56,841 nucleotides of DNA from a virus, in IMG/VR virus record IMGVR_UViG_3300009130_000039, positions 1 to 56,841 of that record; one strand, given 5' to 3'. Positions 5,325 to 55,974 of this stretch are shown in pieces (the stretch's first letter is position 1; every line of letters starts with the position of its first letter). Both the position numbers and the translations under genes were made by a program. Below the pieces are notes generated by a model. That model was given only the letters and a program-made list of their open reading frames with translations, was not told the DNA's origin and searched no databases.

Positions 5325-5361
5325 ATGGCGACATGGCACTTGCTGTGTCGCCATTTTTTTT
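5325..5361 (+). terminator. Rho-independent terminator after the capsid block
   Basis: ATGGCGACA (5325-5333) and TGTCGCCAT (5346-5354) form a perfect 9-bp stem with a 12-base loop, followed by an uninterrupted run of T to 5361. It would end or thin transcription after the capsid and decoration genes, letting them be expressed above the tail genes. An ATG at 5333 lies in the stem-loop and is in frame with the next gene, but it is an unlikely start. Confidence 0.85.
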
Positions 5362-8344: not shown

Positions 8345-8956
8345 ATGACAATCACATACACCACGCATGTCAAGGAATTGACTGACGATGGATTGACTGA
8401 CGAGCAAATTGCCCAGCATTTGTCGGCAAGAACATCGCGGGCGATTCAGTGCAGCGATGCAAGGATGCTTCTTTTGGAAACCCAGGCGATTGTCATTGAT
8501 CCAGTGACCGGAGGCAGGAGCGGTCCCTTGATCGACTACTACTCGACGACGGACGGTGACACGAAACACCTACTGGGTTGGTTTGTCTCGCATGTCCTCG
8601 ATGGTGGACAATACGTCAGCACAGACGAATATCCGCGATCCGTCCAGTTTGAGTCTGTTGTTGCGGCTTTGCCTGTTGAATTGCAGGCGATTGGCGATGC
8701 CGTCGTCCAGCTTGGAGGCGGCAGACCGCACCCAGGGACATCGGTTGATGACGTTGTGCAGGCCCGCGATCAGCATGACGCCGAGATTACCCAGCAGCAG
8801 CAGCTAGAAGAAGCGAGGCTTGCGGTTGACGAAAAGATGAGCAAGCTGAACCAGAAGATTTCCGAGTACATCAATCCTCTGCGAACCTCTCACGATAGCG
8901 ACGACAACAACTGGATAACCGCAATTCAAAACATTGCTGCCACCTGGAGTGACTGA
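8345..8956 (+). CDS. Virion-region protein with C-terminal coiled coil
   Basis: A 203-residue protein. The first ~120 residues look globular (helix, then mixed alpha/beta), and residues ~130-175 form a Gln/Glu/Lys-rich coiled coil that could trimerise or pack on neighbouring tail parts. The ATG has AGG five bases upstream. The stop overlaps the start of the large LamG gene (TGATG), which suggests that it assembles with that protein. No family is recognised. Confidence 0.55.
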   Translation: MTITYTTHVKELTDDGLTDEQIAQHLSARTSRAIQCSDARMLLLETQAIVIDPVTGGRSGPLIDYYSTTDGDTKHLLGWFVSHVLDGGQYVSTDEYPRSVQFESVVAALPVELQAIGDAVVQLGGGRPHPGTSVDDVVQARDQHDAEITQQQQLEEARLAVDEKMSKLNQKISEYINPLRTSHDSDDNNWITAIQNIAATWSD

Positions 8957-19595: not shown

Positions 19596-20222
19596 GTGGC
19601 TATCTCTATCCCCCTGACCACTTATGCGGGAAACACCAGAGGCAGCAGTTCGGGTAACGCATCTAAGTCCACCAGCACCAGTGGAACCTTCTTTTCTCCT
19701 GAAATGAAGGCACTGTCTGACAAGTATTTTGGGGCTGCATCTGACTCAGTCACGGGTTTTCAGGGGAAGCTAGGGGAACTGGCCGATAACCGAACGTCTG
19801 GTCTTACCGACAACTACGCTGGGCAGCTTGCCTTATTGCAGGGGATCGGCAACGCACAGCGAGACAGGATCAATCGAGATTTCGCTGCGCAAGCGGGTGG
19901 GGTTGGAGCGGCACTGGCTGGGACAGGGCTATACAACACCACGGTCCAAGGGAACATGGCCCAAGGCGTCGAGAGGAATCGACAAGAGGCACTAGGTCAG
20001 TTGTCAGAGTCTCTGGCACAGCAGCAACTCGGGGCATTGCAAGGATCTGGTCAACAAATCTCAGCCGCACATGGAGATGAAATGTCGGCACAGTTGGCAC
20101 TTGCGCAGCTTTTGTCTGGTCTTTATGAGTCACAGGCATCTTACCTGCCGACTCTTTCTCAGTCCAAGTCGCAGTCAGAAAGCGGGTCAACGTCCTACTC
20201 GCACTCAGGCAATGCTAGATAG
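19596..20222 (+). CDS. Candidate internal virion (ejection) protein
   Basis: A 208-residue protein starting at GTG with GAGG upstream. The N-terminus is Ser/Thr/Gly-rich and flexible. Residues ~35-185 are Ala/Gln/Gly-rich helices (AAQAGGVGAALAGTG near residue 93), and a Ser-rich tail follows. This composition is typical of podovirus ejection proteins, which leave the capsid with the DNA and help form a channel across the envelope. Position after the tail genes and before a larger coiled-coil protein supports this. Confidence 0.55.
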   Translation: MAISIPLTTYAGNTRGSSSGNASKSTSTSGTFFSPEMKALSDKYFGAASDSVTGFQGKLGELADNRTSGLTDNYAGQLALLQGIGNAQRDRINRDFAAQAGGVGAALAGTGLYNTTVQGNMAQGVERNRQEALGQLSESLAQQQLGALQGSGQQISAAHGDEMSAQLALAQLLSGLYESQASYLPTLSQSKSQSESGSTSYSHSGNAR

Positions 20223-22219: not shown

Positions 22220-25200
22220 ATGGCAGAGCCCAAGAAAGCATGGAAGCCCCTGCGCACCCAACATGATCCAGACGACAAGTCGCTCTGGGAAACGCAAGTG
22301 AATGTTGCGGGCACAAGGAGATTATCGCGAGAGGCTGTCGCAAACCGCGAAGGGCAGTTATGGGACACTCTAAAGCAAGCTGGCGTCCCGCAGTCGATTG
22401 GGTATGAGGACGACAGTCCTTCTCCCGATGCCTTGATGTATTTTGAGCAGCTTGGGCGTGGCATGAACGCGCCGTTGCGCGCTGGGGCGGGAAGGCTGAT
22501 GGACGCCACCGGACTAAGCGGCGATCACCCGATGGGAGACACGATCACTCGGCAAGAGCAGGCGTTCCAGTCCGAAATGGCAAGCCAGATGCACCCCAAG
22601 GGGTTTATTGGCAAGGTCAGCGGCGGGGCAATGGGCGCAGCACAGCAGTTGCCAGCGATGATTGGGGTAGGGGCTACTGCGGGCTTGCCTGGGCTTGTGG
22701 GGATGTATTCTGCGCAGTCATTCAACGACGCCTATGTTCAGGCTATTGATGCTGGGTTGACGCACAACGAAGCACTAAAGACAGCGACACACTCAGCCGT
22801 CATTGAAGCTGGTCTGACTCTTGGCTTTTCAGCAGTCGGCATGGGGGGTGTTGAAAAAATGGCAACACAGTCGGCAAAGAAACGCATGTCAGAAAGGATA
22901 TTAAAGCAGTTTGGGCCAAACGTGTCCCATGAGCTAGTGGAGGAAATTTCCATTGAAATGGCAAACGCGCTTCGGGAGGCAACGAGCGGAGTTGACTATC
23001 AAGCAACAGACCCAGACCGTCTTTGGGACAGGGCGGTGGATACTGCAATTCAAACCGTCATTCTGACGGGTGGTCTTGCCGGAATCCAAGGGACAATGGA
23101 GCGAGGCAACAGGAGATACAACCAGAAACTCATGGAAGGCTACTCAGCCATCAACGAGGAAGCTGGAAGGATGCTCAACAATGGCGCAGATGAGGAAACG
23201 GTTGCTGCCTTTATGAAGGAATCCAAGGAAGAACTGCAACAAGTCGTGTCTGGGGAAAAGACACTGGAGGAAGCTGAGTCTGACGATGAGATAGACAGGG
23301 AGCTAAAGAAAGAACTGCGAAAGACCTTTACCGAGAAGGAGCCGCAAGACACCTCCGTAGACGAAGAAAAAGTCGTTAAAGATGATGGCGAGGGAGTTTT
23401 GCCAGTTGAGCAAGAAGATGCAGTCCTAGAGGTGGATGCAGGACCGGATGCTGTAGTGGACGAGGATGCTCCTGGGCTACCCCCCGGGGAAGCACTGCCA
23501 GAAACGGACGATGATATTGAAGCAGAAATGGCCCAAGAGCCCGAGGAAGAAATTAGCGATGCGGTAGCACCGGAAACTCCTGCTGAGGAACAAACGGTCA
23601 AGCCTGTTTACTCAAAAGAATCAAGTCTGCACGCTTCCATGTATCGTGTCGAGAACTTGCAAAATGACGTAGACGCTTCGGGAAAAGTTCTCGATACAAA
23701 AGTTGAATTTAATGATGAACAAAAGCGAGACGCTTACGCCTTCTTCCGCGAGCTTTCAGAAGATGCAAGGGATTTTTTGGAAAGGGACTCAAGCCCAGAA
23801 AGAAAGAAAAAGCTCGATAGTATTGTAAGACAGGAAATACTAGGCAAATATCCTCAAATCGACCAACAAACGCTCGGTGTTCTTGCTGAGGCGTTGATAG
23901 AGGACGGAGCGTTTGATCGCTTTTCAACTGTCTTAGATACCAGAGAGTCAGAGCTTGAGTCCGATCCTCCCGCTGAGGAACAAACGGTTGAGCCAACTGC
24001 TGAGGAACAAGCGGTTGAGCCAACTGATGATGTAGTTGAGCAGGACGAAGTTGAGGCAGGGCTTATTGGCGACAACGACAGGGGGCAGCAGGTTTACGAA
24101 ACACCAAGCGGACTCCGCTACTACATTGACGACAGCAACCCTGACGATCCCTACAGGATTTACGAGCCAAGCGTAGACAATCGGGGGGTCACGCCAGAGG
24201 ACAGAGACAATAGACCGCAATCGTTTATGGTCGTGATAGATGAAGATGAGGAATCTCAAGAGCCCGAAGGTGAGGGAAGCGGTGACATACTGAAAGCCAC
24301 TCAAGACTACGCCCGCGAGTTAGTCGAGCGAATGAAAGCAGAGTCGGCAGAAGGAGACACAAAGCCTGGCAATGAAGGTGCTACCGAGATAAACGACCTT
24401 GAGGAAGATGATGGTGACATAACTGAATCAGAGATATTAAGAGCGGTCGAGAGGGCTAAGAAGTTTATGGAGGCAGACCCAGAAGGGGGCGACAATCCAT
24501 ACGCTCGATATGAGTATAAGGATGGTGTAATTTTCGCTCCTTTAATGGACGCCGATGACGGTCACATGAAAAGGTGGGCAGAAAGGAGGAAACTTGGACC
24601 GCTGCTGTCAATCTCTCCAATGAACGAAGAAGATTTGGGTAAAAAACATCCATTTTTCTTAACAGCCGAACTCAGCGAGGATCATCCAAGAAGGAAGAAG
24701 TACGAGCATCGGATGAAGTTAAAGGGCTTGCTTCCAACCAAGCTCAAGCCAATGGTTACGTTTGCAAAACGACTTGGACAAGGAAAGTTCTTGGAGCAGT
24801 ACGGGGGAAACGCGGAAGCTATTGAGGAAGCCACAGGACTCGACATGAAAGAGTTTTGGCGGCAAGTCAGGCAAGGACCGAGAGAACAGTCTATCGGCAA
24901 AAAGACTCCAGACAAAACAAGGGAATGGCTTGAAGATGCAAAAGAGATTGGCGTCAATGCAGACGGGGAGCGGATTTACGAAAACGAAAACGGCGTTCGG
25001 GCAGTTATGGGCGAAGATGGGATGCTCCGTTCAGAGCGAACCAAAAACTCAAAGAAGGGGTTTGTTCCTCTCAGCAAAAACAAACGAACGCCCGATTTCC
25101 ACCCTGTCAGGACGATTATTCGCAGGGGAGTAGGGCAAGTTGAGGTTAATACGCTTAATGAACAGGAGGCAATGGCTGCTGTTGGCATGTCAAAAAGCGA

Positions 25201-28200
25201 ACTCACAAAAGCCTTTTCCGGCAAAGACGAGATACCCCTGCCCTCAAGCAAGAGTGGCAGGGGGGTTCTAGGGAAAGACGGGGAAGGGTACTACGCTCGG
25301 ACGCGAGGCGAAGATGAACCCTCGATCGCCATAGAGAAGGGAGGCGGGCCAAGGGACAATGGCTGGGTGAACGTCCCGCCAGTGAAGGATGCAATTGAGG
25401 TAATTGAGTCAGGGGGAGCGAGCAGGGAGGCTAACAAGGCTGCGATTGAAGCCGCTGACTTACAGATTGGTCAGCGAGTCATGGTCACAAGCAATGACGG
25501 AACGAAGCAGATCGGCGCAACTGTCCATAGGGTTCCTGAGAAGGGAAGCGATAGCGCATTTGTTGTCCTAGACAACCACGACAACGAAATGAAGCATGTC
25601 AAAGGGCGGTTGATACAACCTGACTTTGACAAGGCTCTTGCAGAACGAAACGAAAGGATTGAGCAAGGGGAGGCAGCAAAAGCAGGCCCGAACTCTGACG
25701 AGCTTGGGCTTGATAAAGGTTTCGCATACCCAGTCGGTCAGTTTCGCAGAGGCGAAAGGCCAAAGACGCTCGCAAGAACATCTGTTTCAAGGTCAGTTCC
25801 AAAAATCAATGGCGACACTAACAGAAAAGCCAAGAGCAGTATTAGCAGGCTGACCCAGTGGCTTAACAACGAAGCGATCGAGGAAGCAAAGGCTAAGAAC
25901 GACGGCGATGCAATCCGTCGCTTTCAGGACATGGACGTTAGCACAGACAAGAAGGCGTGGGAGTTGCCGCCTGCTGACCGCGACGACATGGTGGACTATG
26001 TGTTTGGGGATGGGTCAATGTTTGACGACCCCAAGCCTGCTTCTGCACCAAATGTTGCGGAAGATGCAACAGATGTTGCGGATTCGCAAGAGCAAGAAAA
26101 GCCAGAGTCAGAAGAAACCAAGGAGGCTTCGCCAGTCGAGGTAGACAACCGAAGTCTCGGCGATATTTCTCTGGATGATTTAATTGCAGCATCAAACGAA
26201 ATTGCAGGCGTGCAGTCTGACGATCCTCGTCCCGAGCAGAAAAGTGAGGTGAAGCAAAGCACTGATAATCACACAGACAGCAAGGCAAAGAAAAATCTTA
26301 AAGATAAACGAAAGGCTCTTGCGGAAGAAATTGGGGACGACGTTGCGGCCCTGCATGACAAAATAAAAAGTTTGAAGAAGAAGTTTGACGGCAGGGTGAA
26401 CGCCAACCCAATGTTTGATGCTGACATACTTAAAGAAGCAACTTTAATCTTGGCTCAAGCTGTAAAAATAGGGGTAAAGAAGTTTCGGCACTTCCTTATT
26501 ATTGCAGCAGACGCAACAGACGTTGATTCAACTGTAAGAATGGGTCCACTGTACGAAATAGTATGGAACGGACTGCGAGAAAGGTTCCCTAACATTGACC
26601 TAGAGGAAGCCACTGACACTCAGGAAATTCTTATTGAAGAAGGAATTATTGATGAGCCTGTTGTCGTAGTTGAAGAACTGGTCCAAAAGGAAAAAGACTT
26701 CGTTGGTATGTGGTCGCGAGCAGCAAGGCTCTTTGAAGATCCCGGCAAAGGCGAAAAGGTCATAACAGAGAGGCGAATTGAGTCTGCTGGCGGCTATATG
26801 TCGCAAAGCTCGGCAGATGCGTTGATAGATCAATGGACCCAACACAGCTTAAAGCAAGCTGACTTCAAAGCCCCAATCATCATACATGGCAACAAATTCA
26901 AATCAGTCAACAACAGCAGGTGGGTTATCAGTCTGTTTGACTACTCGGGCGTGTGGCTTCGTCCGTGGTATGAAGCTGGGTACAGCGTCTTGCAAGTAGA
27001 CATCCAGCATGGCATTGATGTTTTGGAAATGGCAACCGATCCGATAACGTGGTTTGACGAAAACATCGGTGAAGTTGACTGGCATGGTATCCACATGGTC
27101 CTCGCCGCCTGTCCTTGCACAGAGTTTGCTTCCAGTGGTGCGAGACACTGGAAAGACAAGCCGCCTGAGCTACTGGAAGATGCACAAGACCTCGCAAACG
27201 CCACGATGGATTTGATCGAGTTCCTTGATCCTCACTACTACGCCATTGAGAACCCAGCAGGCAGCATTAACAAGAACACCACGGTTCCTGACCCAAGAAT
27301 GAGCTTCCATCCAAATCACTTTGGAAACCCATACACGAAGCTCACGCAGTTGTACGGAAACTTCAACCCGAACCTTCCGCTTGCTCCCGTTTACCCTTTG
27401 AAGGGATCGGAGACGCACAGTCAGTATGGTGGGTCGTCGCTGGAAACAAAGAACAAGAGAAGCGAAACACCTGATGGGTTTGCAGCCGCGTTCTTTATGG
27501 CAAACAACTATCTCGACATGAGCGACCGAGAAAGACTGCTTGTTGACTTTGAGCAAGAAGGACTTGTCAGCAAGGCTTTGGACGCGGGCGTGACTCCCGA
27601 GCGAATACGAGAGCTTGCTGGCGTAGGGTCGCATGAGACGGCTATTACTGACGAACTGCTGGGCGACTTTGAGAGCAACTTGCTTGCCGAGGCGAACGAG
27701 TTGCGCAAAGGGGGGGAGGTCTTAAAACTCACAAGCCCTGCTCCGCTGGCAAGGACGATTGAACAAATTGAGGCTTTGCCGAAATACACGGTCTATCGGC
27801 AGAGTGCTGCTAAGTTTTTAGTTCGGGGTGATGGCAAGCGTGGTGGTGGCGACAGTATTCACGACACTTACGCAGAGGCAGAGCAAGCGGCAAAAGACCA
27901 GAAGTCTCGCGACGACGAAAGGTTCCTAGAACAAGGCACAAGCCAAGAACTGAGGGATCGAGCGGAAGAAGAAATAAGAAAAGACTACGGAAATTTCTTG
28001 GAGTTCAACCCAGGGAGGCGACTGAGGGCGATTGCAGAGCTTGAGCGAGTCAAGGTGATAAGCAAGGACTTCACGGGGCGAGTCAAAGACTTTGTGCGAA
28101 CGGTCGTGACAGAGGGTGACGAGGCGGGAATTGCCAGAGCAAGAGAGGTGAGCGAGCTTGTTTCAGACTATGTGGACCACCTTCAGTATGTGGAGGACCA

Positions 28201-31200
28201 CATAGCCTCCGGTGATTTTAGCAAGCCCTCAGACAGAAGGGAGGTGCCCGCTAAATGGATTGGTCAGGCAAGAAAAGCCCTCAAAGGAAAATTCAAAGAA
28301 AGGTACACCAAGACAACTGGCAAGGAAGATACGCGACAGCTAACCGAAGGAGTGCTAGGAAAGAAGGACTACAGTGATCTGAAGGCACTTCTCACTGATC
28401 TTGTCGGCGCAGAATATGTAACAACACACCGAGGCAGTCTGCGGTCCAAAAAAGATGTCATCAAAACGCTGGTAGGCATACAAGACAACTACGATGGCTT
28501 GCTCATGGAGATGTCTGGTGGGAAGGAAGTCAAGCGATTAGATTTTGATTCACTTGAATGGCTTGATCCAAGGTTGCGTCTCCCAGCGAAAACTCAGGTT
28601 CCTGCAGTCCCGGTCCAAGCAAGAGATGCAGCGATGGAGTTTTTGTTGCAGCAGAAACAGGCAATTCGCTGGCCTGATGGGTACGGTGGAGTTTCCTACA
28701 TTTCGCCTTATGGCTATCTGGAAAGAATACTGACACACAAATTCCCAAGCATCTCACGAAACAACCTAGACAACATCACCAAGGAGATTCAAGAAGCAGT
28801 TGACCCTGACGGATCGCTTGCTCCGATTACAGCATTTACCAATGCAGTTATTTACTTAGACCCGCATTACTTCATCAAAGGCGATGGCAAGTCAGTCAAG
28901 CTGCTTGGTCAATATGAAAGAGAGCAGGTTTTCTTGGATCAGTCATTTAAGTCTATCTACGATTCGCTGACTGATGAAGGAGAGGCTCGCATCTCTGGGA
29001 AGGTGTTGGAGGACGCAAAAGACGCACATGCACAACGGTACGCCGAGCGATTGGTTGAAGAAGCAAAGCGAAAGGAAAGCGCAGAGCGAGAAGAAGTCAA
29101 GGACTACTACGGGTTCCTTCCTGATAATCCGATGCAGGCTGGCAGGATCAAAAAATCACTTGAACTGCAAAGGGACTTTGGTGGTGAGCCTTTTAGTTCA
29201 TGGAAGGAGTACGTTGAAGATCGAGTGAAGCAGGGGTGGGTTGTCGGGGAAGATGACAGTCCAGCAAGTACGACTGGCGGAACTATCACAGCAAGCGACC
29301 CAATACTCATGTTTACAAATGAGGACGGGACTGTTGACATGAGCCCGCTTTCAATACCAAAAACAGCGGTCAATTACGCACAGTTTTTGATTGACGAGGG
29401 CTTTGCTTCTAAGACCGGCATTGTGCCGATCAACAACGAAGCAATACAGGCGAGCCGTCAGAAAAAAGGACTGGCAAAAAAGAAGGTCAGGCAAGCACCA
29501 GTAACCCTAGATCCAGAGAAGATTTTTGATGCAGCGTTTGCTGTTTGGGAGCAGCTACACCCCGACGCAACCAGCGAAGAAAAATCAGAAATGCTAGATG
29601 CGTTGGAGTTTTTTGTAGACGAGATATGGTCCGACTACGGCTACTCGCTCACTGGACAGGAGCCATTTGAAGATGGCGTGATAAGTTACCCAGGCTTTTC
29701 AAAAATTGAGTGGGATGAAATCACCGACGAGGTTCTTAACGACACGATCATTTCATTCCTGAACGAATCAAATAGCTCCTTTCGTCAGTCCACGGTGAAT
29801 GATGATTACTCGGGAATTATAAACAGCCTCGATCAAGACGCATTTAATTCACTGTTCGCTGCTATGGCAGATGCTATAGAGCGACAAATGTATAAGGAAG
29901 CCAGCAAGCCAAAGAAGAAGAAAACGCTTAAAGAAAAGGCGGCTGACGCTGCGTCCGTCGCAGAAGAAAAGGCAGAGGAATTGCGTCGTAAGATACGCAA
30001 CCTGCACAGCAAGCCAACAATGGGCGTAGACCTTGATCTCGTTCGCGTGGCTGTTGATGTTGCTGTGGCAAAGATAAAAGCTGGTGTGTTGAGTTATGCC
30101 GCTTTTATTCAAGATTTTGCAGCAAACTCCCATGAGGGAGAGATGGAGATATTTGGTCCTTACTTGGACGCTGCATGGGAAACGCTCGGTGCAATGAGCG
30201 ATGACGACCGTAAGGTTCTCGGCGTTGAGAAGGCTGACACCACCAAGGAAGCAACATGGAGAGAAGCACTCAACTCAACACACGCAGAGCCAGCAAAGGA
30301 AGGCAAGGCTGGCAAGCCTGAGCCCGTTGAAAAGACAGCAGATGAAAATGCTGACGCGATTGAAAATGATCCAAGCGGACGCATCATGCCTGGGTTCCGC
30401 ATGTTCATTAGCGGAATGTCACGCGGACCCGGGGATATAAGGGACAGCCAACCTTCCCGACCGGGGAAAGGTGATGGCAAGGGGCGTCCGGTCGGTGTGG
30501 CTTACGAAAGCTGGCACAAAGATAGCGGCAAGTTTCTCAAGCCAAACGACACGGTCAAGGATCTGCTTGTGGAGCATGTAAACAGGTTCGGCTTGCCGAT
30601 ATTCATTGACTCGGGAATGTTCGGCGTAGTCAGCAGGGGCGAGGTCGGGCAAGAGGCTGATTACGAAGGTGCTTTAGCTTTCTACGATGAAATGATTAGG
30701 CAGATCAATCCTGATCTTCGCAATCTTGTTTATGTCGTCGCTCCTGATTTTTTGTTGCAAACAGGGAAGGGAAAGAAAGGCATTAGAGGCGACCACGACA
30801 AGACGGTTGCTTTGCAATTACAACACAAAGAGAAGATTGAGGATCTGGCTGGCATGGGTGCAAATGTCATCATTCCAGTGCAGAGGTCATACGACCCAGA
30901 TGAAAGCCTTGTCAATAATGCTCTGGAAGCGAAAGAAAATTTCAAAACATGGGGGCCAAACTTGATTTTCGGGATACCATACAACGCTGCAGCTTGGCCC
31001 AAGGAGCAGATTGTAGGGTTCACGGACTTCTACCAGCAGAACTTTGTCGTGGACCAGCAAACTGGTGGACCCTTGCGACTGTGGTTGCTTGGTGGCGGAC
31101 CATCCAAGCTCAAGCCTTTGTACGAAACCCTTAAAGAAATCAGCCCAACCGTTGAGCTATACGGAGATGCCAGTACAGAAGTCGGATTCAACAGGGGGAG

Positions 31201-34200: not shown

Positions 34201-37200
34201 GCGAGTTCCGAAGTATCCATTTAGCTCGCTGGTTCGCCAAGCTCTCAACAACGGGTCCATCAAGATCATGTTCCCACGCGATCCTGAAACTGGGATACAG
34301 GAGGTGGACGAGACTGCGACAAGATCAGCAAACGAAGCCCTAATGATTCTGAAAGATGATTTTGAGAACTGGATTTGGAGCGATCCTGCTCGCGCAGCAG
34401 AGGTACAGTCAATCTACAACGAGGAATACAACTCGTTCGTCACTCCCGATTTCAAGGATGTTCCTCTGAGTTTTGTGGGGATCGTCACGGAGAGGAACGG
34501 TATTCCGTTTTCGCTCCGCAAGCACCAAAGACGCGCTGTGTGGCGAGCAATAATCGGCGGAAAAGGAATCTTCGCCCATGAAGTCGGGACCGGCAAGACA
34601 TTGACGATGGGTGCCTTGGCGATGGAGTCTCGTCGATTTGGCTACGCGAAAAAACCAATGCTGCTTGCCCACAATGCCAACGCCGCTGCAGTAGCAAAAG
34701 AAATCCAAGAGGCTTACCCGTCCGCAAGGATCTTGTTCGTCGATAACGTAAGCGCAGAAGGCAAGGAGCAAGCATTAGCGATGATGGCTGCGGAGGACTG
34801 GGATCTGGTTGTCGTCCCGCACAGCCTGACAAGTAGATTCTTGCTCACAGAGGAAACGATAACGAACCTCATAAGGCACGACCTTGACTCCCTCGCCGCC
34901 GCAGCCCAGGAAGCGTATGACGATGACCAATCAGCCTTCAAGGGCAGCTTCCCTGCCGATCTCGATAACGTAACCGAAGCCCAACTTCAAAGGCTGGGAT
35001 CAAGGACAGCAAAAGAGCTTGTTCTTGAGCGAAATAAGCTGGTCAACGAAATAAAGAAAGCAGCAAAACTATCAAGGGACAATACCCTGTTCTTTGAGGA
35101 CATGGGGGTTGACATGATAATGGTGGACGAGGTCCACGAATACAAAAAAATCCCACTCGCTACATCACAGTCAATAAAAGGACTCAACACCAAGGGGTCA
35201 AAGAGAGGGATCGTCCTCAAATTGCTCACAGACCATGTGAGGAAAACAAACAACGGGCGAGGGATTTACACGTTCAGCGGGACACCCATGACAAACACGC
35301 TAAACGAAATCTACAACCAGATGCGATTTGTCATGGCAGAGGAAATGGAGGCAGCAAAAATCAGGGAATGGGATGCGTGGTTTAATGTCTTTGCGAAATC
35401 GTCGATTGAGCCAGAGTTCACAAGCGGAGGAACGATGGCACCGATGGACAGGTTACGGGAGTTTCAAAATCTGCCTGAGTTGCGACAGATGGTCGGTCAG
35501 TATCTTGACATCGTTTTTGCAAGCGATATGGAAGAATTTGTGCCTCGCAAAGAGAGGGAAGGGAGAGTCCCAGACGGAGAAGAACCAAAAGGTGTTCCCT
35601 TTAATCAAACGATCAACGTCACTTCGTTCCCAAATAAATTTCAGAAGGCATACAGTGAAGCCCTTGTATATCGCTACCTGCATTTCAGCGAGTCAAGTGG
35701 TCGGGAGAAACGGGAACTGGCGAAGATGACGGGAACTCCATACAGCCCGTTAGTCATAGAGACTGAGGGGGTAAAGATGTCGCTTGATCCAAGGCTGACC
35801 GACTTGGCATTTAATCCAGAGTTTACTTTTGACGACATTCCCGACATTGACCCGCTCGATCCAGAACTAAAGGTCAACAAGATGATAGCAGAGGCAATGC
35901 CTCTGTACCGGGAGAACGCGAAGTCAACTCAAATGGTGTTCATGGAGACGGGGCATGGTTCCGAGCCAGAGAGGTCCACGGGCGAGAAGGATAGCAAAGG
36001 CAATGTGATTACGGAGAAAGTCGCTGCGTTTAATCTTGCAGAAGAAATCAAGCGAAGGCTGATGGATGAAGGTGTCCCAGAGAACGAGATAGCATTGTTC
36101 TCGGGCATGTCAGCCGCGAAAAGGACGATTGCTGCAGAGAAGATGCGGAGGGGCGAGATACGGTTTGCGATCGGATCGACGCAGACGATGGGTGTCGGGG
36201 TTAATGCACAGGACGAAATGATAGCCATACATCATCTGGACTGTCCGTGGATGCCTGGGTGGTTAGAGCAGAGGAATGGCAGGGGCAGGCGGCAAGGCAA
36301 TCGCTACAACACGATCAAGCAGTTCAGGTATGTCTGCGAGAACGATCAGGACGCAAGGCGTTGGCAAATTGCGCTCACGAAGGACACATTTATACGGCGG
36401 TTTATGAAGGGTGAGTTTGTCGGTCGCTCGATGGATATGTCTGACGTTGAAGTGGGTGATGCGAGTGATTTTCAAAAAACGCTATCGGTCGCCGCAGGCG
36501 ACCCGAGAATCCTGCTCAGGTCCAAGCTGGAAGGCGAGGTGGCCCGACTGACGAGTAACGCTGCGTCTTTTGCTGCCAACGTACAAGCACAGGTAAACAA
36601 CGCAGAGCGAAAGACACGGTCCATTGCTTTCAAGGAGCAGCAAAACGGCGCGTTTTCTGCAATGCACCGAACGGCATCCGAGGCAAAGCCTGAGAGCCGG
36701 GAGGATGATGTTGCCACGCTCGTATTTCCTGACGGTACAGAAAAGGAGAGCAAAGGATACGGGAGTGGGATGGACGCGAACGTTCTCGCAATCACCCGAG
36801 ACTTGACAGACCTATCCAGAGAGTACAGGAGGACTGCATTTCGCTCATCCGAAGCTGGGTTGAAGGCTGTTGGAAAGTGGCGAGGACTGACGATCTTTTA
36901 CAAGGTTCCGCTTGGGGGAATCATGCCAGATTCAGCAGAACTATTTATCGGGATGGATTCAGCAGAGCCGAACGAAATGCTGTGCAGGCCAATCAGACCC
37001 TCGCTGCCGTCAATGGAATCGCAAGTCAGACAGATTCCTTCTGTGATACAGAAAAACAAAGCCAGCATCGGACTAGACAGAGCAGCCATTGATCGCAGCA
37101 AAGATGCAATGAAGGTGGCGTACCCAAAGCAAGACAAGCTCGACGCGGCAATGCGATCACTGGATGAAGTCAGAAAGGAAATACGAGACAATCCCGACAT

Positions 37201-40200
37201 CAGCCCTCCTTGGTTCCGCATGGGCGCGCCGGTTGGGACCGAAGTTTTCTACGAAGGAAAAGAGTACACGGTACAAAACCATCGCATGATCGACACAGTG
37301 ATAGCAGTAGACGAACACGAAAAAACAGTGACGCTTCCTGCGAAAGACCTTCTCGACGCCGCTGACGGATACGTTTATCCAGAATTGCAGCCAGGGTACG
37401 ACGGTCCCATTGATGTCGAGGTTAAGGTGCTGAAACAGTTGACTCGCAAATCGTACAGAAGCGGAGAAGCGATCACTGTCGATCTTGGCGCGTACTCTGA
37501 CAGCTATTCCGAGGCAGACTTAGCGGCAATCGGAGTCAACCCTTCTTCAATAATGACACACAAGGTAGAGGGGATAGTGGCAAGAGTCGTCCATGAAGGC
37601 GAGGAAGGGTTTGAAGTAAAGTTCAACGACCGAACAAGCAAAACACTGACACCCGATGGGGTTGCGGTGTATGGAAACACGATCACACTAAGCATCCGAC
37701 CACAGCAAGACAATAGCTACGGAGCCCAGTCTATCAATCCGACTGAAAACCCAGTCCTACGGACAATGCTCGACCTCTATGACACTGGAACGTCGGCAGC
37801 GGTGCCGCTTGCGGCGAGTCCTAGAAGGAGCAGCCCACAGAAACCACCAACGCAGGTCACAAGAGCGAGAGATTTGCCCGCCAGTACGCCATTTGATGAG
37901 CGGCTTGAGCATTTGATTGCAACCGCAACCGAAGCTACTGCGCAAGAATGGGATTCCGTCAATCCAATAGATCAGCACAATTGGATCGACGATCAGCTAG
38001 GAGGTCAGTTGTATGAGTACATTAAGCCAGCAGCACCGGGAGAGCCTGCGAGCGCGGAACCAATTAGCAGACCTCAAGATGAAGTAAGTGACGTAATTGA
38101 GCGAGTAGAGGACAGGATGGGGTCTTTGCTTGGTCGGGGGCGATCCAGAGATTCAGAGTCATCAAGGATGGGATTCGTCAAGCGTCCAGTCAAAAGCAGA
38201 GGCAGGGGCGGAAGCAAGCGTCGAGAAGTTGATGTGCGGAGGAATAAGACGATCGGACTGGAAGCTGGTGCTAAAAATCCGTTGTCTGCTCACGAAATCA
38301 TTAAACGTGTGGCCTTAATCTTTGACCTTCCGATTAGGCGCGGGCAGATCAGGACAGGCGTAATGGGGCTTTATCGCTTCCTGAGCCACCTGAACGCTGG
38401 TGCGTATGCCCCGCAAGTTGCTCGACTTGCCAGGGCTGATGGAAACAACCTCGCAGTCCTCATCCATGAAGTTGCTCATCACGTTGACGAAATCACAAAA
38501 ACCAGTGCGAGCGGGTTTCCAAAGAGCATAGAGAGCAGGTTGCTCGATTTTGACTACGACCAATCCCGAACCGATGGGCCAAGAGTCGAGGAAGGCTGGG
38601 CAGAGTTCATTCGTGGCTGGGGGACGCTGAGTAGAAAGCAGAGGAAGAAGATAAGCGGCTTCAATGAGGTCCAGCAATGGTTTGAGACAACGTGGGCAAA
38701 CGCACACCCCAGCGAGTACGCAAAACTCAAAGAAGTGCGAGCAATGATAAAGCGATACAGCGACCAATCTGTGTTTAAGCGGTTGCAGTCGTCGATACGC
38801 AGAGCGTCCGACGATACTCTGATGGCGAGAACTGCGAGAGTCGCAAGGGACTTGGCAAGCAAGACAGGCAGAGAGTATCAGTACGATCGCCTACTCAGAA
38901 ACAAGGGGCTACGCGCGTACATGGCTGCAAAGGATCGCTACTATGCGCTGAAAGAAATGGAAAAGTATGTCAAGAGATTCAGGCACGAAGAAAATCGTCG
39001 CCTCAGAAGGGAAGGGAAACCCGAGCTGCCAAACTACTACTCTCATGCGGAGAGTGCGTATGAATATGCAACTGCAACTCACAACACAGCAGTCACAAAT
39101 GCCGAACACGCTATGACGCATGGGGTGTTTCTGGTTTCTCCCCAACCAGGCGCGGCTCGGCCCGTCATCAAGGACACCTCAATAGACGAGGCGATGTCTG
39201 AAATCAGGAATGAGGCTGATCTGGAAGCAGCGGAAGTGTATATGGTGGCTCATCATATCGTGAATATGGACCAGAAGAAGCAGGACGAGGGAGTGCATGA
39301 TTACGTTTGGCCTATCGAGGTCAGCGAGGCAAAGAGGCTCGTTCGCGAGGTGGAAGCTGACAGCGACAAGTTCCAGAGGTACGAGAAATTAAGACAGGCT
39401 GCAAACCGGTTCAATAACGGATTGCTCGCAATGCTGCACGACGCTGGTGCAATCAGTCAATTGGATTATGAGAGGATGCTGAAAGCCTACAGCGTTGACG
39501 AAAAATCTCTCGATGGATCTCTTTACGTTCCGATGATGCGCGTGACCGAAAAGGTGAAAACTAGACTGGGTGGCTCGGGGCACCTTGATCTAGGCAAGGC
39601 AGTGAAGCGTCGAGGGCGAAAAGGCAGCGATCTACAGGTCATTTCACCAATGCAGTCGTTGCAGGACCGCGCTATTACTTTTTATCGCGTTGCACAGAGC
39701 GTCCAACTGCAGAAGCTCTTGTACGCGGAGTCGCAGCAAGCACCGGGGATGGCTAAGTTTGTCGAGAGGATTGATCCATCTCTTGCTGCGAGAAATATCC
39801 CCATTAGGGACATTTTGAAAAGTTTAGTTGAGGAAGGGATCGTTGACGAAGATTTTGCGACTCAGATCGAGATTGCAGATGTGCTGCGATCGGAGATGAA
39901 GATACATGGCTTGAAGAAATACAAGGGTGCTATCGGGCAGGACGCTGAAGAAGAACTCATGGACTTGGCTGGATACAAGCCGGGGACGTACAAAAACAAG
40001 CACGTCAAGAAGGTTGTCGAGGGGTTACCGTCTGCGATGAGCGTCATCACCCTGTGGAGAGCAGACTACGACACTCCAACTCGTTTCAATAAGAACATCA
40101 AACACTTTGTTCACGACGGCGAGGACATCCTTGTTGAAATATCAGATGAACTGGTGGAGGCGTTGAGCGGCAATCTCGACCTGATGAGCAACCCTGTGGT

Positions 40201-42199
40201 AAGAGCGTCGGGGTCTGCTTCGCGTCTTTTCAAGTACGGTGCAGTCGGCGCAAACACGAAGTTTGGGATGCGGCAGATTTCAATGGACTACATGACAAAC
40301 CTGTTTCAAGCCAGGGAGCAGGGGGTCGAGCGATACTGGATGCCTCTGGTGTACGCTGCTCAATTCGCGTTGTCCAACATACGGAACGCTGGCGCACACG
40401 ATACCAATCAAGTACGCCAACTATTCCGTTCATACGCTGGACAAAAAATGAACGTACTAACGCCCGATGTGCAGGGAAAATCTCGGATGCTAAAGGGGAT
40501 GACGAAGCGAGGTAGGACGATGGGATTGCAGTCTGTCGGGCGAACCCCCGGAAAAATTAAGAAGTTCTTTGAACAGTTGATAGCCGTGTCAGACATTGGT
40601 CCTCGCTACGCGGAATTTGTCGCCAGCTTGCGAAACGATGGATACACCATTAACGGAACGACGGGTCGTATTGAGAAAAACGGAAAGCCAACTCATCCTT
40701 CTAGGCATCACATAATGCGAGCGATCAATGCTGCGAGCGATGTGACGTACAACTATCGGCGAACGGGAAGATGGGGTCAGGTCGTCGAGCAATTCGTGCC
40801 ATTTACGAATGCAAAACTAGAAGGACAGGATAAGCGACTGCGGACACTAAAGAACGTGGCTGATGTTGGCTCATCAATCCTCAGAGGACGCTGGATAGAG
40901 TTGGAGGATGCTGATATTCGCGGAGCAGTCTACACCACAGGGAACAGCTTGCTTGCGCTCGGTGTTGGCGCGCTCTACTACATGCTCAAAAGCGACGACG
41001 AGGAATATGAAGAAGAAGAATTTTGGCAGCGGGGGCGAGGGTTCAGCCTTGGCGCAGACGGCGGGGTGCAGAAGGTCTTTATCCCAAACTCCAGAGAGTT
41101 CAGCATTCTTTTCGGGCTCGGTGAAGTTTCCGCCATGCTATACGACCAAACAACGACCGGCGAGAACAAGGACATAATTAGCGGGCAAGAAAAAAGGCTA
41201 AACCCAGACGCAAAGGGGTCAATCGCCAGAATTGCCGAAACAGAGCTAAGGCAGAGCCTCGGGAACTACGAGACAGCTTTTCTGTTGGACTCTGGGTACT
41301 TGTCTACCACGTTAGGCGCGTGGGCAAATTGGAAGATGTTTCAAGGAAGGAGTATCGAGCCAAGCTGGATGGACGAGCAAGCGATACCAGACGAGAAACG
41401 CTACACTCCATACACCTCGTCTGTGGGGAAGTGGACCGGAAAGTACACCGGAAGGTATCTCGGCAAAGGACCGATGTATGTTGATTATGTACTAGGCGAC
41501 CTTGGTGGTGGTGGATATACGCGGGCAACACGCGCGATCGACGAATACATAGAGGGTGATGTCACTGCATCGAGCGTACCGTTTGCCGGTGGTATCTACA
41601 CCAACCGGCACCAAAAGCGATCGGTAAACGACCTATATGCAACGTCTCGCAGTCTCTTGGACGCAAAACAAAACCATGAATATGGAATCCCAGGATCAGA
41701 GTGGACTGTTGAGCATGAGCGTTTTTTCAGGGATGTAAACAACGCAAAAGCATTGGCAAGCGTGATTACTCGCCTTGCGAAAGACTCAAAAAGTGATGTT
41801 CGCACAGAGGTATCGCAACTGACCACGGGACTTGCAAGGGAGGCACTCGGGAGAGATCCACACAAAAGCAACCCGTCGCCTTGGGCTCTGAGAAAGTCCG
41901 AGTTCCCGAAAATCCTAGTTCAGTCCTCGCTGGGTCGTAAGTCGTTTTATCAAGAACTCAAAGACGAAGTTAAGGGGATGATCGAGGACACGACACCCTC
42001 AAAAACCACGAAAGATATGTACGCATCGGGAAGGACTCGCGAGGATGAGGAAGCTGCGAGAAAGGAGAAGGCAGAGTACGCAAAGCAGTGGTTAAAGGAC
42101 CACGCAGATAGCCCGATCGTGAAGGAGGTGCGAGCAGAATTGCGAGCAAAACCGACGCCTAAAAAGAAAAGGAAGAAATCTGGATTTGCAATTCCATAG
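22220..42199 (+). CDS. 6659-residue polyvalent protein: methylases, TGT-like, helicase, protease
   Basis: One uninterrupted frame of 19,980 bp. Approximate residues: 120-300 Ala/Gly-rich hydrophobic helices as in ejection proteins; 360-620 acidic linkers with repeats of AEEQTVEP; 1355-1460 and 2565-2670 two copies of a helical domain; 1490-1765 cytosine-C5-methyltransferase-like (SLFDYSG near 1571, PC at 1632-1633, ENP at 1677-1679); 2725-3040 TGT/DpdA-like (IDSGMFG with D2797, D2843, LLGGG near 2956); 3120-3245 low-complexity linker; 3250-3560 adenine-methyltransferase-like (EPSVGSGNFFG near 3376, NVPF 3441-3444); 4100-4760 SF2 helicase (VGTGKT 4122-4127, DEVH 4303-4306, SGTP near 4353); HEVAH 5416-5420; then a long C-terminus resembling the LPD38 polyvalent-associated region, ending Lys-rich. 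The methylase-helicase pair resembles P1 DarB. It probably travels in the virion and protects or processes entering DNA. Only the first two statements about frame and motifs are seen directly; roles are inferred. Confidence 0.8.
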   Translation: MAEPKKAWKPLRTQHDPDDKSLWETQVNVAGTRRLSREAVANREGQLWDTLKQAGVPQSIGYEDDSPSPDALMYFEQLGRGMNAPLRAGAGRLMDATGLSGDHPMGDTITRQEQAFQSEMASQMHPKGFIGKVSGGAMGAAQQLPAMIGVGATAGLPGLVGMYSAQSFNDAYVQAIDAGLTHNEALKTATHSAVIEAGLTLGFSAVGMGGVEKMATQSAKKRMSERILKQFGPNVSHELVEEISIEMANALREATSGVDYQATDPDRLWDRAVDTAIQTVILTGGLAGIQGTMERGNRRYNQKLMEGYSAINEEAGRMLNNGADEETVAAFMKESKEELQQVVSGEKTLEEAESDDEIDRELKKELRKTFTEKEPQDTSVDEEKVVKDDGEGVLPVEQEDAVLEVDAGPDAVVDEDAPGLPPGEALPETDDDIEAEMAQEPEEEISDAVAPETPAEEQTVKPVYSKESSLHASMYRVENLQNDVDASGKVLDTKVEFNDEQKRDAYAFFRELSEDARDFLERDSSPERKKKLDSIVRQEILGKYPQIDQQTLGVLAEALIEDGAFDRFSTVLDTRESELESDPPAEEQTVEPTAEEQAVEPTDDVVEQDEVEAGLIGDNDRGQQVYETPSGLRYYIDDSNPDDPYRIYEPSVDNRGVTPEDRDNRPQSFMVVIDEDEESQEPEGEGSGDILKATQDYARELVERMKAESAEGDTKPGNEGATEINDLEEDDGDITESEILRAVERAKKFMEADPEGGDNPYARYEYKDGVIFAPLMDADDGHMKRWAERRKLGPLLSISPMNEEDLGKKHPFFLTAELSEDHPRRKKYEHRMKLKGLLPTKLKPMVTFAKRLGQGKFLEQYGGNAEAIEEATGLDMKEFWRQVRQGPREQSIGKKTPDKTREWLEDAKEIGVNADGERIYENENGVRAVMGEDGMLRSERTKNSKKGFVPLSKNKRTPDFHPVRTIIRRGVGQVEVNTLNEQEAMAAVGMSKSELTKAFSGKDEIPLPSSKSGRGVLGKDGEGYYARTRGEDEPSIAIEKGGGPRDNGWVNVPPVKDAIEVIESGGASREANKAAIEAADLQIGQRVMVTSNDGTKQIGATVHRVPEKGSDSAFVVLDNHDNEMKHVKGRLIQPDFDKALAERNERIEQGEAAKAGPNSDELGLDKGFAYPVGQFRRGERPKTLARTSVSRSVPKINGDTNRKAKSSISRLTQWLNNEAIEEAKAKNDGDAIRRFQDMDVSTDKKAWELPPADRDDMVDYVFGDGSMFDDPKPASAPNVAEDATDVADSQEQEKPESEETKEASPVEVDNRSLGDISLDDLIAASNEIAGVQSDDPRPEQKSEVKQSTDNHTDSKAKKNLKDKRKALAEEIGDDVAALHDKIKSLKKKFDGRVNANPMFDADILKEATLILAQAVKIGVKKFRHFLIIAADATDVDSTVRMGPLYEIVWNGLRERFPNIDLEEATDTQEILIEEGIIDEPVVVVEELVQKEKDFVGMWSRAARLFEDPGKGEKVITERRIESAGGYMSQSSADALIDQWTQHSLKQADFKAPIIIHGNKFKSVNNSRWVISLFDYSGVWLRPWYEAGYSVLQVDIQHGIDVLEMATDPITWFDENIGEVDWHGIHMVLAACPCTEFASSGARHWKDKPPELLEDAQDLANATMDLIEFLDPHYYAIENPAGSINKNTTVPDPRMSFHPNHFGNPYTKLTQLYGNFNPNLPLAPVYPLKGSETHSQYGGSSLETKNKRSETPDGFAAAFFMANNYLDMSDRERLLVDFEQEGLVSKALDAGVTPERIRELAGVGSHETAITDELLGDFESNLLAEANELRKGGEVLKLTSPAPLARTIEQIEALPKYTVYRQSAAKFLVRGDGKRGGGDSIHDTYAEAEQAAKDQKSRDDERFLEQGTSQELRDRAEEEIRKDYGNFLEFNPGRRLRAIAELERVKVISKDFTGRVKDFVRTVVTEGDEAGIARAREVSELVSDYVDHLQYVEDHIASGDFSKPSDRREVPAKWIGQARKALKGKFKERYTKTTGKEDTRQLTEGVLGKKDYSDLKALLTDLVGAEYVTTHRGSLRSKKDVIKTLVGIQDNYDGLLMEMSGGKEVKRLDFDSLEWLDPRLRLPAKTQVPAVPVQARDAAMEFLLQQKQAIRWPDGYGGVSYISPYGYLERILTHKFPSISRNNLDNITKEIQEAVDPDGSLAPITAFTNAVIYLDPHYFIKGDGKSVKLLGQYEREQVFLDQSFKSIYDSLTDEGEARISGKVLEDAKDAHAQRYAERLVEEAKRKESAEREEVKDYYGFLPDNPMQAGRIKKSLELQRDFGGEPFSSWKEYVEDRVKQGWVVGEDDSPASTTGGTITASDPILMFTNEDGTVDMSPLSIPKTAVNYAQFLIDEGFASKTGIVPINNEAIQASRQKKGLAKKKVRQAPVTLDPEKIFDAAFAVWEQLHPDATSEEKSEMLDALEFFVDEIWSDYGYSLTGQEPFEDGVISYPGFSKIEWDEITDEVLNDTIISFLNESNSSFRQSTVNDDYSGIINSLDQDAFNSLFAAMADAIERQMYKEASKPKKKKTLKEKAADAASVAEEKAEELRRKIRNLHSKPTMGVDLDLVRVAVDVAVAKIKAGVLSYAAFIQDFAANSHEGEMEIFGPYLDAAWETLGAMSDDDRKVLGVEKADTTKEATWREALNSTHAEPAKEGKAGKPEPVEKTADENADAIENDPSGRIMPGFRMFISGMSRGPGDIRDSQPSRPGKGDGKGRPVGVAYESWHKDSGKFLKPNDTVKDLLVEHVNRFGLPIFIDSGMFGVVSRGEVGQEADYEGALAFYDEMIRQINPDLRNLVYVVAPDFLLQTGKGKKGIRGDHDKTVALQLQHKEKIEDLAGMGANVIIPVQRSYDPDESLVNNALEAKENFKTWGPNLIFGIPYNAAAWPKEQIVGFTDFYQQNFVVDQQTGGPLRLWLLGGGPSKLKPLYETLKEISPTVELYGDASTEVGFNRGSHDEYGVRKPKRQIKLDDGLSIQDALEAFLTEGHSPGYEPLFDAIDAHHDTWSRSSDGEAELKRLIDDAVRVIASKIMENFSPDLTGNSKIDSDVFWNRIEDLFNRQPNKSFTDGKPDVFTGMPRLSQLLFHKYLQTPQAREESQDEQARTDDRGRSADQEGRREPDSEQDSADGTDGEVLAGEQQGDAQRTEPEGSPVGVRETPTGTTRQGSSETDADGESGTERGGTDSERLVGDGSRTARGRDGVGESTRPNYHLIRDKWGAITGGGLKARFARNQRAIELAIELTESGVPPTTEQQDELAAYTGWGAFGQALFDGEWGTPKPQDGWEEEDDWLREHLGKDAWLQMQKSIVNAHYTSPQLVSAIWGAVRRLGFNGGRVLEPSVGSGNFFGVMPRDLMGASHLTGVEQDETTAKIASLLYPQANIRHKGYEDVETADEFYDLVISNVPFGQEKPAQVRYKQDHLVHNFFFRRALDHVKPGGLVVFITGKGTSDGKTLAKYLRQQVSEEASVLGAVRLPSGFFQEYSKTNVVTDLIVIRKNRKDGKNANAGITWWSEEGEGNVVPYKTPSGETVTLNKHFIDNPQDVLGTINYGSGTTSKHPGLIIEPYSEEQTESLLTQWIQRLPENSFNTDRDDWQGVERPAEGGRRQRTILADNKSTGQWRVYKKKGKKSVLDGEGRPVYETIEFDGPQVSVVDGESIVPLQAKMIKMGVTGWAKANVKNPSTLKKKADAILALAEVRDAYETLLYVQRTSKSKKEIKKARAKLNEKYDDFVKKHGEIAESEALQVFKRAQDPMYASLSVLARKNHKTGEYEKATVFRENTVVAEIAEIKNASLGDAFAAERNRSRIIDYKRIAKSANLKTKEAIDQLVDAGYIYKTETGTYEPADIYLSGNVRKKQRALEAAIDEGMSGLEKTLEAIKKIVPEMIPYQHIETHMGARFIPASVYADFLAEKLNISPSRVGVRLHQGKWAVSLTPEINRSDEALQWGLSDAVIRNGERVPKYPFSSLVRQALNNGSIKIMFPRDPETGIQEVDETATRSANEALMILKDDFENWIWSDPARAAEVQSIYNEEYNSFVTPDFKDVPLSFVGIVTERNGIPFSLRKHQRRAVWRAIIGGKGIFAHEVGTGKTLTMGALAMESRRFGYAKKPMLLAHNANAAAVAKEIQEAYPSARILFVDNVSAEGKEQALAMMAAEDWDLVVVPHSLTSRFLLTEETITNLIRHDLDSLAAAAQEAYDDDQSAFKGSFPADLDNVTEAQLQRLGSRTAKELVLERNKLVNEIKKAAKLSRDNTLFFEDMGVDMIMVDEVHEYKKIPLATSQSIKGLNTKGSKRGIVLKLLTDHVRKTNNGRGIYTFSGTPMTNTLNEIYNQMRFVMAEEMEAAKIREWDAWFNVFAKSSIEPEFTSGGTMAPMDRLREFQNLPELRQMVGQYLDIVFASDMEEFVPRKEREGRVPDGEEPKGVPFNQTINVTSFPNKFQKAYSEALVYRYLHFSESSGREKRELAKMTGTPYSPLVIETEGVKMSLDPRLTDLAFNPEFTFDDIPDIDPLDPELKVNKMIAEAMPLYRENAKSTQMVFMETGHGSEPERSTGEKDSKGNVITEKVAAFNLAEEIKRRLMDEGVPENEIALFSGMSAAKRTIAAEKMRRGEIRFAIGSTQTMGVGVNAQDEMIAIHHLDCPWMPGWLEQRNGRGRRQGNRYNTIKQFRYVCENDQDARRWQIALTKDTFIRRFMKGEFVGRSMDMSDVEVGDASDFQKTLSVAAGDPRILLRSKLEGEVARLTSNAASFAANVQAQVNNAERKTRSIAFKEQQNGAFSAMHRTASEAKPESREDDVATLVFPDGTEKESKGYGSGMDANVLAITRDLTDLSREYRRTAFRSSEAGLKAVGKWRGLTIFYKVPLGGIMPDSAELFIGMDSAEPNEMLCRPIRPSLPSMESQVRQIPSVIQKNKASIGLDRAAIDRSKDAMKVAYPKQDKLDAAMRSLDEVRKEIRDNPDISPPWFRMGAPVGTEVFYEGKEYTVQNHRMIDTVIAVDEHEKTVTLPAKDLLDAADGYVYPELQPGYDGPIDVEVKVLKQLTRKSYRSGEAITVDLGAYSDSYSEADLAAIGVNPSSIMTHKVEGIVARVVHEGEEGFEVKFNDRTSKTLTPDGVAVYGNTITLSIRPQQDNSYGAQSINPTENPVLRTMLDLYDTGTSAAVPLAASPRRSSPQKPPTQVTRARDLPASTPFDERLEHLIATATEATAQEWDSVNPIDQHNWIDDQLGGQLYEYIKPAAPGEPASAEPISRPQDEVSDVIERVEDRMGSLLGRGRSRDSESSRMGFVKRPVKSRGRGGSKRREVDVRRNKTIGLEAGAKNPLSAHEIIKRVALIFDLPIRRGQIRTGVMGLYRFLSHLNAGAYAPQVARLARADGNNLAVLIHEVAHHVDEITKTSASGFPKSIESRLLDFDYDQSRTDGPRVEEGWAEFIRGWGTLSRKQRKKISGFNEVQQWFETTWANAHPSEYAKLKEVRAMIKRYSDQSVFKRLQSSIRRASDDTLMARTARVARDLASKTGREYQYDRLLRNKGLRAYMAAKDRYYALKEMEKYVKRFRHEENRRLRREGKPELPNYYSHAESAYEYATATHNTAVTNAEHAMTHGVFLVSPQPGAARPVIKDTSIDEAMSEIRNEADLEAAEVYMVAHHIVNMDQKKQDEGVHDYVWPIEVSEAKRLVREVEADSDKFQRYEKLRQAANRFNNGLLAMLHDAGAISQLDYERMLKAYSVDEKSLDGSLYVPMMRVTEKVKTRLGGSGHLDLGKAVKRRGRKGSDLQVISPMQSLQDRAITFYRVAQSVQLQKLLYAESQQAPGMAKFVERIDPSLAARNIPIRDILKSLVEEGIVDEDFATQIEIADVLRSEMKIHGLKKYKGAIGQDAEEELMDLAGYKPGTYKNKHVKKVVEGLPSAMSVITLWRADYDTPTRFNKNIKHFVHDGEDILVEISDELVEALSGNLDLMSNPVVRASGSASRLFKYGAVGANTKFGMRQISMDYMTNLFQAREQGVERYWMPLVYAAQFALSNIRNAGAHDTNQVRQLFRSYAGQKMNVLTPDVQGKSRMLKGMTKRGRTMGLQSVGRTPGKIKKFFEQLIAVSDIGPRYAEFVASLRNDGYTINGTTGRIEKNGKPTHPSRHHIMRAINAASDVTYNYRRTGRWGQVVEQFVPFTNAKLEGQDKRLRTLKNVADVGSSILRGRWIELEDADIRGAVYTTGNSLLALGVGALYYMLKSDDEEYEEEEFWQRGRGFSLGADGGVQKVFIPNSREFSILFGLGEVSAMLYDQTTTGENKDIISGQEKRLNPDAKGSIARIAETELRQSLGNYETAFLLDSGYLSTTLGAWANWKMFQGRSIEPSWMDEQAIPDEKRYTPYTSSVGKWTGKYTGRYLGKGPMYVDYVLGDLGGGGYTRATRAIDEYIEGDVTASSVPFAGGIYTNRHQKRSVNDLYATSRSLLDAKQNHEYGIPGSEWTVEHERFFRDVNNAKALASVITRLAKDSKSDVRTEVSQLTTGLAREALGRDPHKSNPSPWALRKSEFPKILVQSSLGRKSFYQELKDEVKGMIEDTTPSKTTKDMYASGRTREDEEAARKEKAEYAKQWLKDHADSPIVKEVRAELRAKPTPKKKRKKSGFAIP
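31635..31943 (+). CDS. Overprinted TnpV-like small protein inside the giant gene
   Basis: A 102-codon frame, shifted relative to the giant gene. It has its own GAGGAAAG eight to nine bases before an ATG and an ordinary codon choice. The product is a compact, charged helical protein (LTEQMVRYWQENN near residue 27, then SELSQKGVL, a long helix, and an acidic C-terminus). It resembles the TnpV-like helical family seen in transposons and phages. In the giant frame the same DNA encodes only Asp/Glu/Arg/Gly/Ser-rich low-complexity sequence, as expected if the small gene is the constrained one. Another reading is a chance open frame, but the amino-acid pattern argues against this. Confidence 0.6.
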   Translation: MSKQGLTTEDVQQIKRDAASLTPSKTPLTEQMVRYWQENNREMHSELSQKGVLWEFARRLQEQHDKEVARLMRTENLGQSEAELIAKDLLAMVPEQPEDEME

Positions 42200-55900: not shown

Positions 55901-55934
55901 TGCAGTCTCCTAAGAAAAAAGTAAATGGGGCAGA

Positions 55935-55956
55935 CCGCTGAGACTGATCCCAGCGG
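55935..55956 (-). promoter_or_regulatory. Hairpin between the ATPase and VWA genes
   Basis: CCGCTG and CAGCGG pair around a 10-base loop, and on the - strand a T run appears about 14 bases further on. It may lower expression of the VWA gene relative to the ATPase gene. Confidence 0.35.
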
Positions 55957-55974
55957 CTTAGCCTCATCTACTCT

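Follow-up and report, generated by a model that had tools for sequence, protein, structure and literature searches.

The 6,659-residue protein encoded by the viral DNA analysed here (56,841 bases of an IMG/VR record, hereafter the window) is, judged by its sequence, a giant DarB-like polyvalent protein that also carries a TGT/DpdA-like domain. DarB-like giants are an already known, poorly understood class. The new element, as far as the literature was searched, is the recurrence of a DpdA/TGT-like domain within giant polyvalent proteins. No such entry turned up in the domain catalogue published for polyvalent proteins (PMC5512222), and no link between DpdA and polyvalent proteins had been drawn in the literature covered by our search, which was not exhaustive. 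If the domain is active, marking of DNA with 7-deazaguanine would begin at entry, from the virion, and the ATPase of the same chain could stand in for DpdB of bacterial Dpd systems, in which DpdA is partnered with DpdB, itself an ATPase (PMC12839542). The relatives defined here are furthermore available for studying how injected proteins beat restriction.

The giant frame and its domains

The giant gene (22220..42199, plus strand) starts with ATG and contains no internal stop, whereas the random odds of an open frame of 6,659 codons are about 10^-149 at 5.0% stops per random codon. Purines account for 0.64-0.72 of the bases at codon position 1 in each 2-kb block, and this block-by-block uniformity indicates that the frame is coding along its full length. 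The single 19,980 bp frame in a late operon, as described in a sequence-only reading of this DNA, is thus confirmed. The gene occupies 35% of the record, a linear virus contig that may be incomplete. On its 5' side lie the gene for the major head protein and further virion genes, on its 3' side genes for a RecE-like exonuclease, an SbcC-like protein and helicases, and an integrase is encoded on the opposite strand. The source phage is tailed and, by this gene content, probably temperate, and the giant gene is the last gene of the structural module, as in phages JC1, USP_18 and 8P. A DNA-level search of phages with the window returned zero matches. Elsewhere in the window, a 1,502-aa protein (8956-13464) matches several virion structural families (phrog_8510, 3545, 6011). 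At the contig end, near the integrase, the minus strand (54521-56826) encodes a protein of phrog_24053, a family of unknown function, and a phrog_19600 ATPase, which are possibly accessory or defence genes.

The length of the protein had been considered unusual, which is only partly right: relatives with a TGT-like domain reach 7,825 aa (L053, G016), 7,415 aa (L049, G015) and 6,825 aa (L071, G018). The idea of a record length was dropped in view of these open frames. A published plasmid polyvalent protein even comprises 12,242 aa (PMC5512222).

The features of the giant gene and its neighbours are listed below (aa, residues of the giant protein).

19596..20222 (+): 208-aa Gly/Ser-rich protein, in the position of the gene for virion protein JC1 gp67
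20253..22184 (+): 643-aa Gln-rich, coiled-coil-like protein, adjoining the giant gene 5', in the position of JC1 gp68
22220..23209 (+): N-terminal domain, Gly/Ala-rich and helical-looking, aa 1-330; profile matches in 9 relatives
23210..24619 (+): acidic low-complexity linker, aa ~331-800; 25-31 D/E per 100 residues (aa 301-800)
26294..26629 (+): helical domain M3, copy 1, aa 1359-1470; E = 5e-4 (profile built on 45 giants)
26690..27610 (+): C5-cytosine-methyltransferase-like domain, aa 1491-1797; phrog_757, E 5e-43
29912..30310 (+): helical domain M3, copy 2, aa 2565-2697; E = 2e-25
30362..31252 (+): TGT/DpdA-like domain, aa 2715-3011; family profile, relatives and predicted fold
31994..32257 (+): LPD36-like region, aa 3259-3346; GxGA motif YTGWGA at aa 3299-3304
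32258..32839 (+): N6-adenine DNA methyltransferase, aa 3347-3540; NVPF at aa 3441; PF02384, E 7e-6
34307..36550 (+): SF2/SNF2-type ATPase, aa 4030-4777; GTGKT 4123, DEVH 4303, SGTP 4353
36527..37549 (+): conserved post-helicase domain, aa 4770-5110; profile matches in 81 relatives
38240..38914 (+): aa 5341-5565, a putative zincin-type metallopeptidase; motifs HEVAHHVD (aa 5416) and EEGWAEF
39767..40999 (+): C-terminal domain, aa 5850-6260; common to 20 giants and JC1 gp69
40997..41548 (+): LPD38 (large polyvalent protein-associated domain 38), aa 6260-6443; PF18857, E 1e-11
51925-53037 (opposite strand): integrase

The designation as a polyvalent protein, proposed earlier from the letters alone, is borne out by the combination of several unrelated enzyme domains with LPD domains (LPD38 at 45.6 bits, cut-off 27) in one long chain encoded in the late region. 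For residues 3134-4792, phrog_10089 (DarB-like antirestriction) is hit at E = 0. The core (aa 3259-4777) consists of LPD36, defined in PMC5512222, and a gamma-class N6-adenine methyltransferase, fused to an SNF2-type ATPase in the same chain, the arrangement expected of a DarB-like protein. In the PDB, the core is matched at the profile level by SNF2 ATPases, by TaqI and by a type I restriction methyltransferase. By tblastn, 112 phage records were matched, with Pseudomonas phages USP_18/USP_25 on top (36% identity) and Burkholderia phages DC1, CSP3, JC1 and BcepIL02 also among the top matches. The suggested SF2 helicase was corroborated by the SNF2 ATPase motifs, phrog_10089, the PDB profiles and collinearity with P1 DarB; its helicase C part lies at aa 4624-4692.

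Two methyltransferase-like domains had been proposed, and their assignment as C5 and N6 enzymes holds against families and relatives. The C5 domain contains both the catalytic PC dipeptide (PCxxF, aa 1630) and the EN(V/P) motif (ENP, aa 1677) of C5-cytosine DNA methyltransferases. PCT and ENP are invariant across 10 C5-domain sequences, and the domain is common to phage 8P and eight IMG/VR giants; its matches to cytosine-5 methyltransferases in the PDB are weak only. M3, a helical domain for which no Pfam name was found, immediately precedes the C5 domain with its first copy and the TGT-like domain with its second. Given that M3 occurs twice in the window and once each in 46 other giants, mostly preceding the DarB core, we suggest that the extra length arose via insertion of M3-bounded blocks. 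Matches to the profile of the N-terminal domain are located mostly within the first ~400 residues of the relatives. A single-sequence scan of viral contigs with the C-terminal region gave zero matches. No domain was assigned to aa 331-1358, 1800-2560, 5111-5340, 5566-5850 and 6444-6659.

The proposed HEXXH domain fared less clearly. The motif context is that of a zincin-like metallopeptidase (HEXXH, an Asp three positions further along, and a Glu ligand later in the chain), and H, E, H, Y and EG.AE are invariant among seven giants. Only 0.16 chance occurrences of HExxH are expected in the window protein, and the giant ORFs contain 85 such sites versus 13 predicted from composition, an approximately six-fold excess. 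The AlphaFold model of the region is, however, poor (pLDDT 61), and Foldseek yielded no structural match for it, so that the region is a putative zincin by its motifs.

The TGT/DpdA-like domain

Taken alone, the TGT-like region of the window had no significant sequence match in Pfam, PHROG or the PDB, and a single-sequence scan of viral contigs with it returned zero matches. Searching plasmids by tblastn matched proteins of ~270 aa from Pseudomonas and an LPD1 polyvalent protein, and only once these plasmid relatives supplied an alignment was the viral scan productive, giving 37 viral and 8 genomic loci. The stand-alone Pseudomonas plasmid proteins match phrog_887 (queuine tRNA-ribosyltransferase), as do 16 of the 34 family members (best E 4e-8). 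Throughout the 34-row family alignment, SG, FxDSGxF and VxPD, along with a G following the LL motif, show no variation. The family profile aligns with DpdA of phage 9g at E 2e-6 (hhalign), and its sole match within the entire genome of nt-1, a phage with dPreQ0 in its DNA (PMC6884629), is DpdA2 (YP_008125322, E 0.012). E. coli TGT is matched weakly (E 0.005, probability 8%). The domain was modelled by AlphaFold with a pLDDT of 80 and a pTM of 0.78. In a Foldseek search of BFVD, this model retrieved another polyvalent protein first, nt-1 R9TGF0 second (464 aa, equal in length to DpdA2) and a mycobacteriophage queuine tRNA-ribosyltransferase third; in the PDB it found generic TIM barrels alone (TM about 0.3). 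The earlier naming of a TGT-like domain was therefore upheld through its plasmid and viral relatives, phrog_887, 9g DpdA and nt-1 DpdA2, with a weak match to cellular TGT. By these comparisons, the family is DpdA-related, and it goes unrecognised by Pfam.

The motif DSGxF...PD...LLG...D spans aa 2797-2983 of the window protein. Its candidate catalytic aspartates, D2797 (DSGMF), D2843 (VAPD) and D2983 (GDAS), align opposite D72, D114 and D215 of 9g DpdA, positions that we take to be those of catalysis in TGT. At position 2955, however, the window has Trp in place of the His that 9g DpdA (His196) and all but one of the 38 aligned sequences possess, and a near-invariant Ala of the family is Met2800. 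As the conserved histidine 196 defines 9g-type DpdA (PMC6884629), the window domain falls outside this subfamily. We therefore file aa 2715-3011 as DpdA/TGT-like and not as DpdA, since the Asp motifs are kept but the His is replaced. Because of the two substitutions, the window copy may be altered or inactive. None of QueC, QueD and FolE was detected in the window record, which is possibly incomplete, and QueC was absent from all 20 records checked, which may be incomplete as well. With no preQ0 genes in the record, any 7-deazaguanine would be supplied by the host.

The domain was detected in 26 of 129 long ORFs from the loci retrieved, which include named relatives and one plasmid. It is joined to the DarB core within a single chain in the window as well as in L031/L032, L033, L041, L049/L050, L066, L071, L072 and L131, preceding the core in some giants and following it in others. 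No DarB core was detected in four giants carrying the TGT-like domain (L017, L025, L043 and L047). The domain set of the window, earlier regarded as unusual, is not unique: L071 and L072 also combine TGT-like, C5 and DarB, in this order, whereas the window order is C5, TGT-like, DarB. The idea of a unique set was accordingly dropped; other relatives carry pairs of these domains. In a phylogenetic tree, no one clade unites the giants' TGT-like domains, which may still share a single origin; the window domain sits on a long branch. In close pairs of other giants that permit an estimate, the pairwise dN/dS of the domain is 0.09-0.23. Its presence in 26 ORFs, the varied domain orders and these dN/dS values lead us to conclude that it is a reused module under selection and not the accident of one phage.

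Members of the family also occur outside the giants. Pseudomonas plasmids or contigs (L006, L007, L008, L010-L013) encode unannotated stand-alone TGT/DpdA-like proteins of ~265-285 aa, in L007 adjoined by a phosphoribosyltransferase gene. In environmental viral contigs (L022, L024, L036, L045, L048, L051, L052), the family is found in ORFs of about 330-960 aa; the stand-alone member of L052 had zero tblastn matches in catalogued phages.

Probable virion packaging and possible modes of action

That the giant protein would be packed in the virion, as the sequence-only reading proposed, is well supported by analogy with its homologues. In purified JC1 virions, gp69 was identified by mass spectrometry with 51 unique peptides, and gp67 and gp68, encoded just 5' of gp69, are also virion proteins (PMC9144972). 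P1 DarB is packaged into the capsid in about 40 copies per virion, with its first 30 residues directing entry (PMC9024508). Packaging and protection of DNA in cis against type I restriction have been shown for homologues (PMC9144972, PMC9024508, PMC5512222); P1 DarB protects in cis, presumably by ATPase-driven methylation (PMC5512222). The two genes preceding the giant gene of the window correspond to JC1 gp67 and gp68 in position and similar size only. A homology of this pair to virion proteins of JC1, USP_18 or 8P was considered and dropped for want of sequence similarity. The 208-aa protein resembles only a 204-aa protein of L117, which likewise precedes a giant gene (E 3e-5), and no family match was obtained for the 643-aa protein.

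We hypothesize here that the protein is a virion-packed, injected DarB-like giant that shields entering DNA by methylation of A and C and by exchange of G. Such shielding seems the best explanation for the giant, and we regard this reading as about evenly poised between right and wrong. Packed in the capsid, the protein would enter the cell alongside the DNA; its SNF2 ATPase would then travel on the incoming double helix, while the base-modifying domains mark this DNA in cis ahead of restriction cutting. Homology to JC1 gp69 and P1 DarB points to both injection and modification of the entering DNA. The marks would comprise N6-adenine methylation, cytosine methylation of the C5 type and guanine exchange by the DpdA/TGT-like domain, which by its sequence relationships may replace guanine by a 7-deazaguanine of host origin, for example preQ0. 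The HEXXH domain would probably cleave the chain into working pieces. A more far-reaching version appears rather doubtful to us, namely that tailed phages carry in the capsid one translocating protein which alters three of the four bases in the entering genome before phage gene expression, with DpdA activity being delivered by the virion and not by a replication-time gene product.

At two near-invariant positions (37/38), the window domain has Trp2955 and Met2800. Together with the long tree branch and the precursor genes missing from the record, these substitutions could point to a degenerate passenger, once active as a DpdA-like enzyme and now idle or binding DNA or a base. The three conserved aspartates and the remaining invariant positions are nevertheless intact, the domain is under strong purifying selection in other giants, and an aromatic residue may be tolerated at the position of His196; cellular TGTs have a Tyr within a similar motif. 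We consider such a loss of function improbable, and judge similarly the possibility that the injected domain is directed at RNA, altering host tRNA (guanine/queuine) or draining 7-deazaguanine pools as a takeover effector independent of DarB. TGT enzymes are tRNA enzymes, RNA-directed effectors are numerous among polyvalent proteins (PMC5512222), and the domain also occurs in the giants lacking a detectable DarB core and in stand-alone proteins. Profile and fold searches, however, reach the DNA-acting phage enzymes DpdA and DpdA2 more clearly than cellular TGT, and the domain often shares its chain with DNA methyltransferases.

It is very unlikely, in our view, that the giant is made late and is not injected, acting in the infected cell or in assembly as a methyltransferase/helicase with a structural or replication-associated role. 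Some DarB-like relatives are indeed annotated merely as structural (8P), and recombination and helicase genes lie 3' of the giant gene. Yet the homologues JC1 gp69 and P1 DarB are found inside virions, P1 DarB protects in cis, and both LPD38 and a HEXXH peptidase are characteristic of polyvalent proteins that are injected (PMC5512222).

Comparison with known systems

The nearest counterparts of the TGT-like domain on plasmids are the LPD1 polyvalent protein of a Cupriavidus plasmid (2,206 aa) and the Pseudomonas proteins of ~270 aa, which belong to the same family. Unlike in the window protein, the methyltransferase-helicase dyad was not detected in the Cupriavidus protein, and the Pseudomonas proteins, which lack annotation, stand alone where the window domain is fused. 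Compared with 9g gp03 DpdA and nt-1 DpdA2, the DSG, D/E, HxLG and terminal Asp motifs align, and likeness extends to profile and fold. These phage enzymes are, however, stand-alone and encoded beside preQ0 genes, whereas the window domain is fused, has Trp in place of the His and has no preQ0 genes in its record.

For the DarB core, the closest named relatives are those of the Pseudomonas phages USP_18 (4,947 aa, 36% identity) and 8P (5,145 aa). In 8P, as in the window, a C5 methyltransferase is fused N-terminally (39% identity), but in both phages the TGT-like domain was not found and the proteins are 1,500-1,700 residues shorter. The Bcep22-like JC1 gp69 (phrog_10089; Lessievirus) agrees with the window protein in closing the structural module and in the DarB core (28-29% identity), M3 and the C-terminal domain (E 1e-86), but has 4,515 aa and is described without a TGT-like domain. 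P1 DarB (2,255 aa) is a third as long, with C5, TGT-like and M3 domains not detected, but displays the same succession of an N6 methyltransferase with the NVPFG motif (E 9e-23) and an SNF2-type ATPase (E 1e-14), and matches the window protein by profile at 5e-88.
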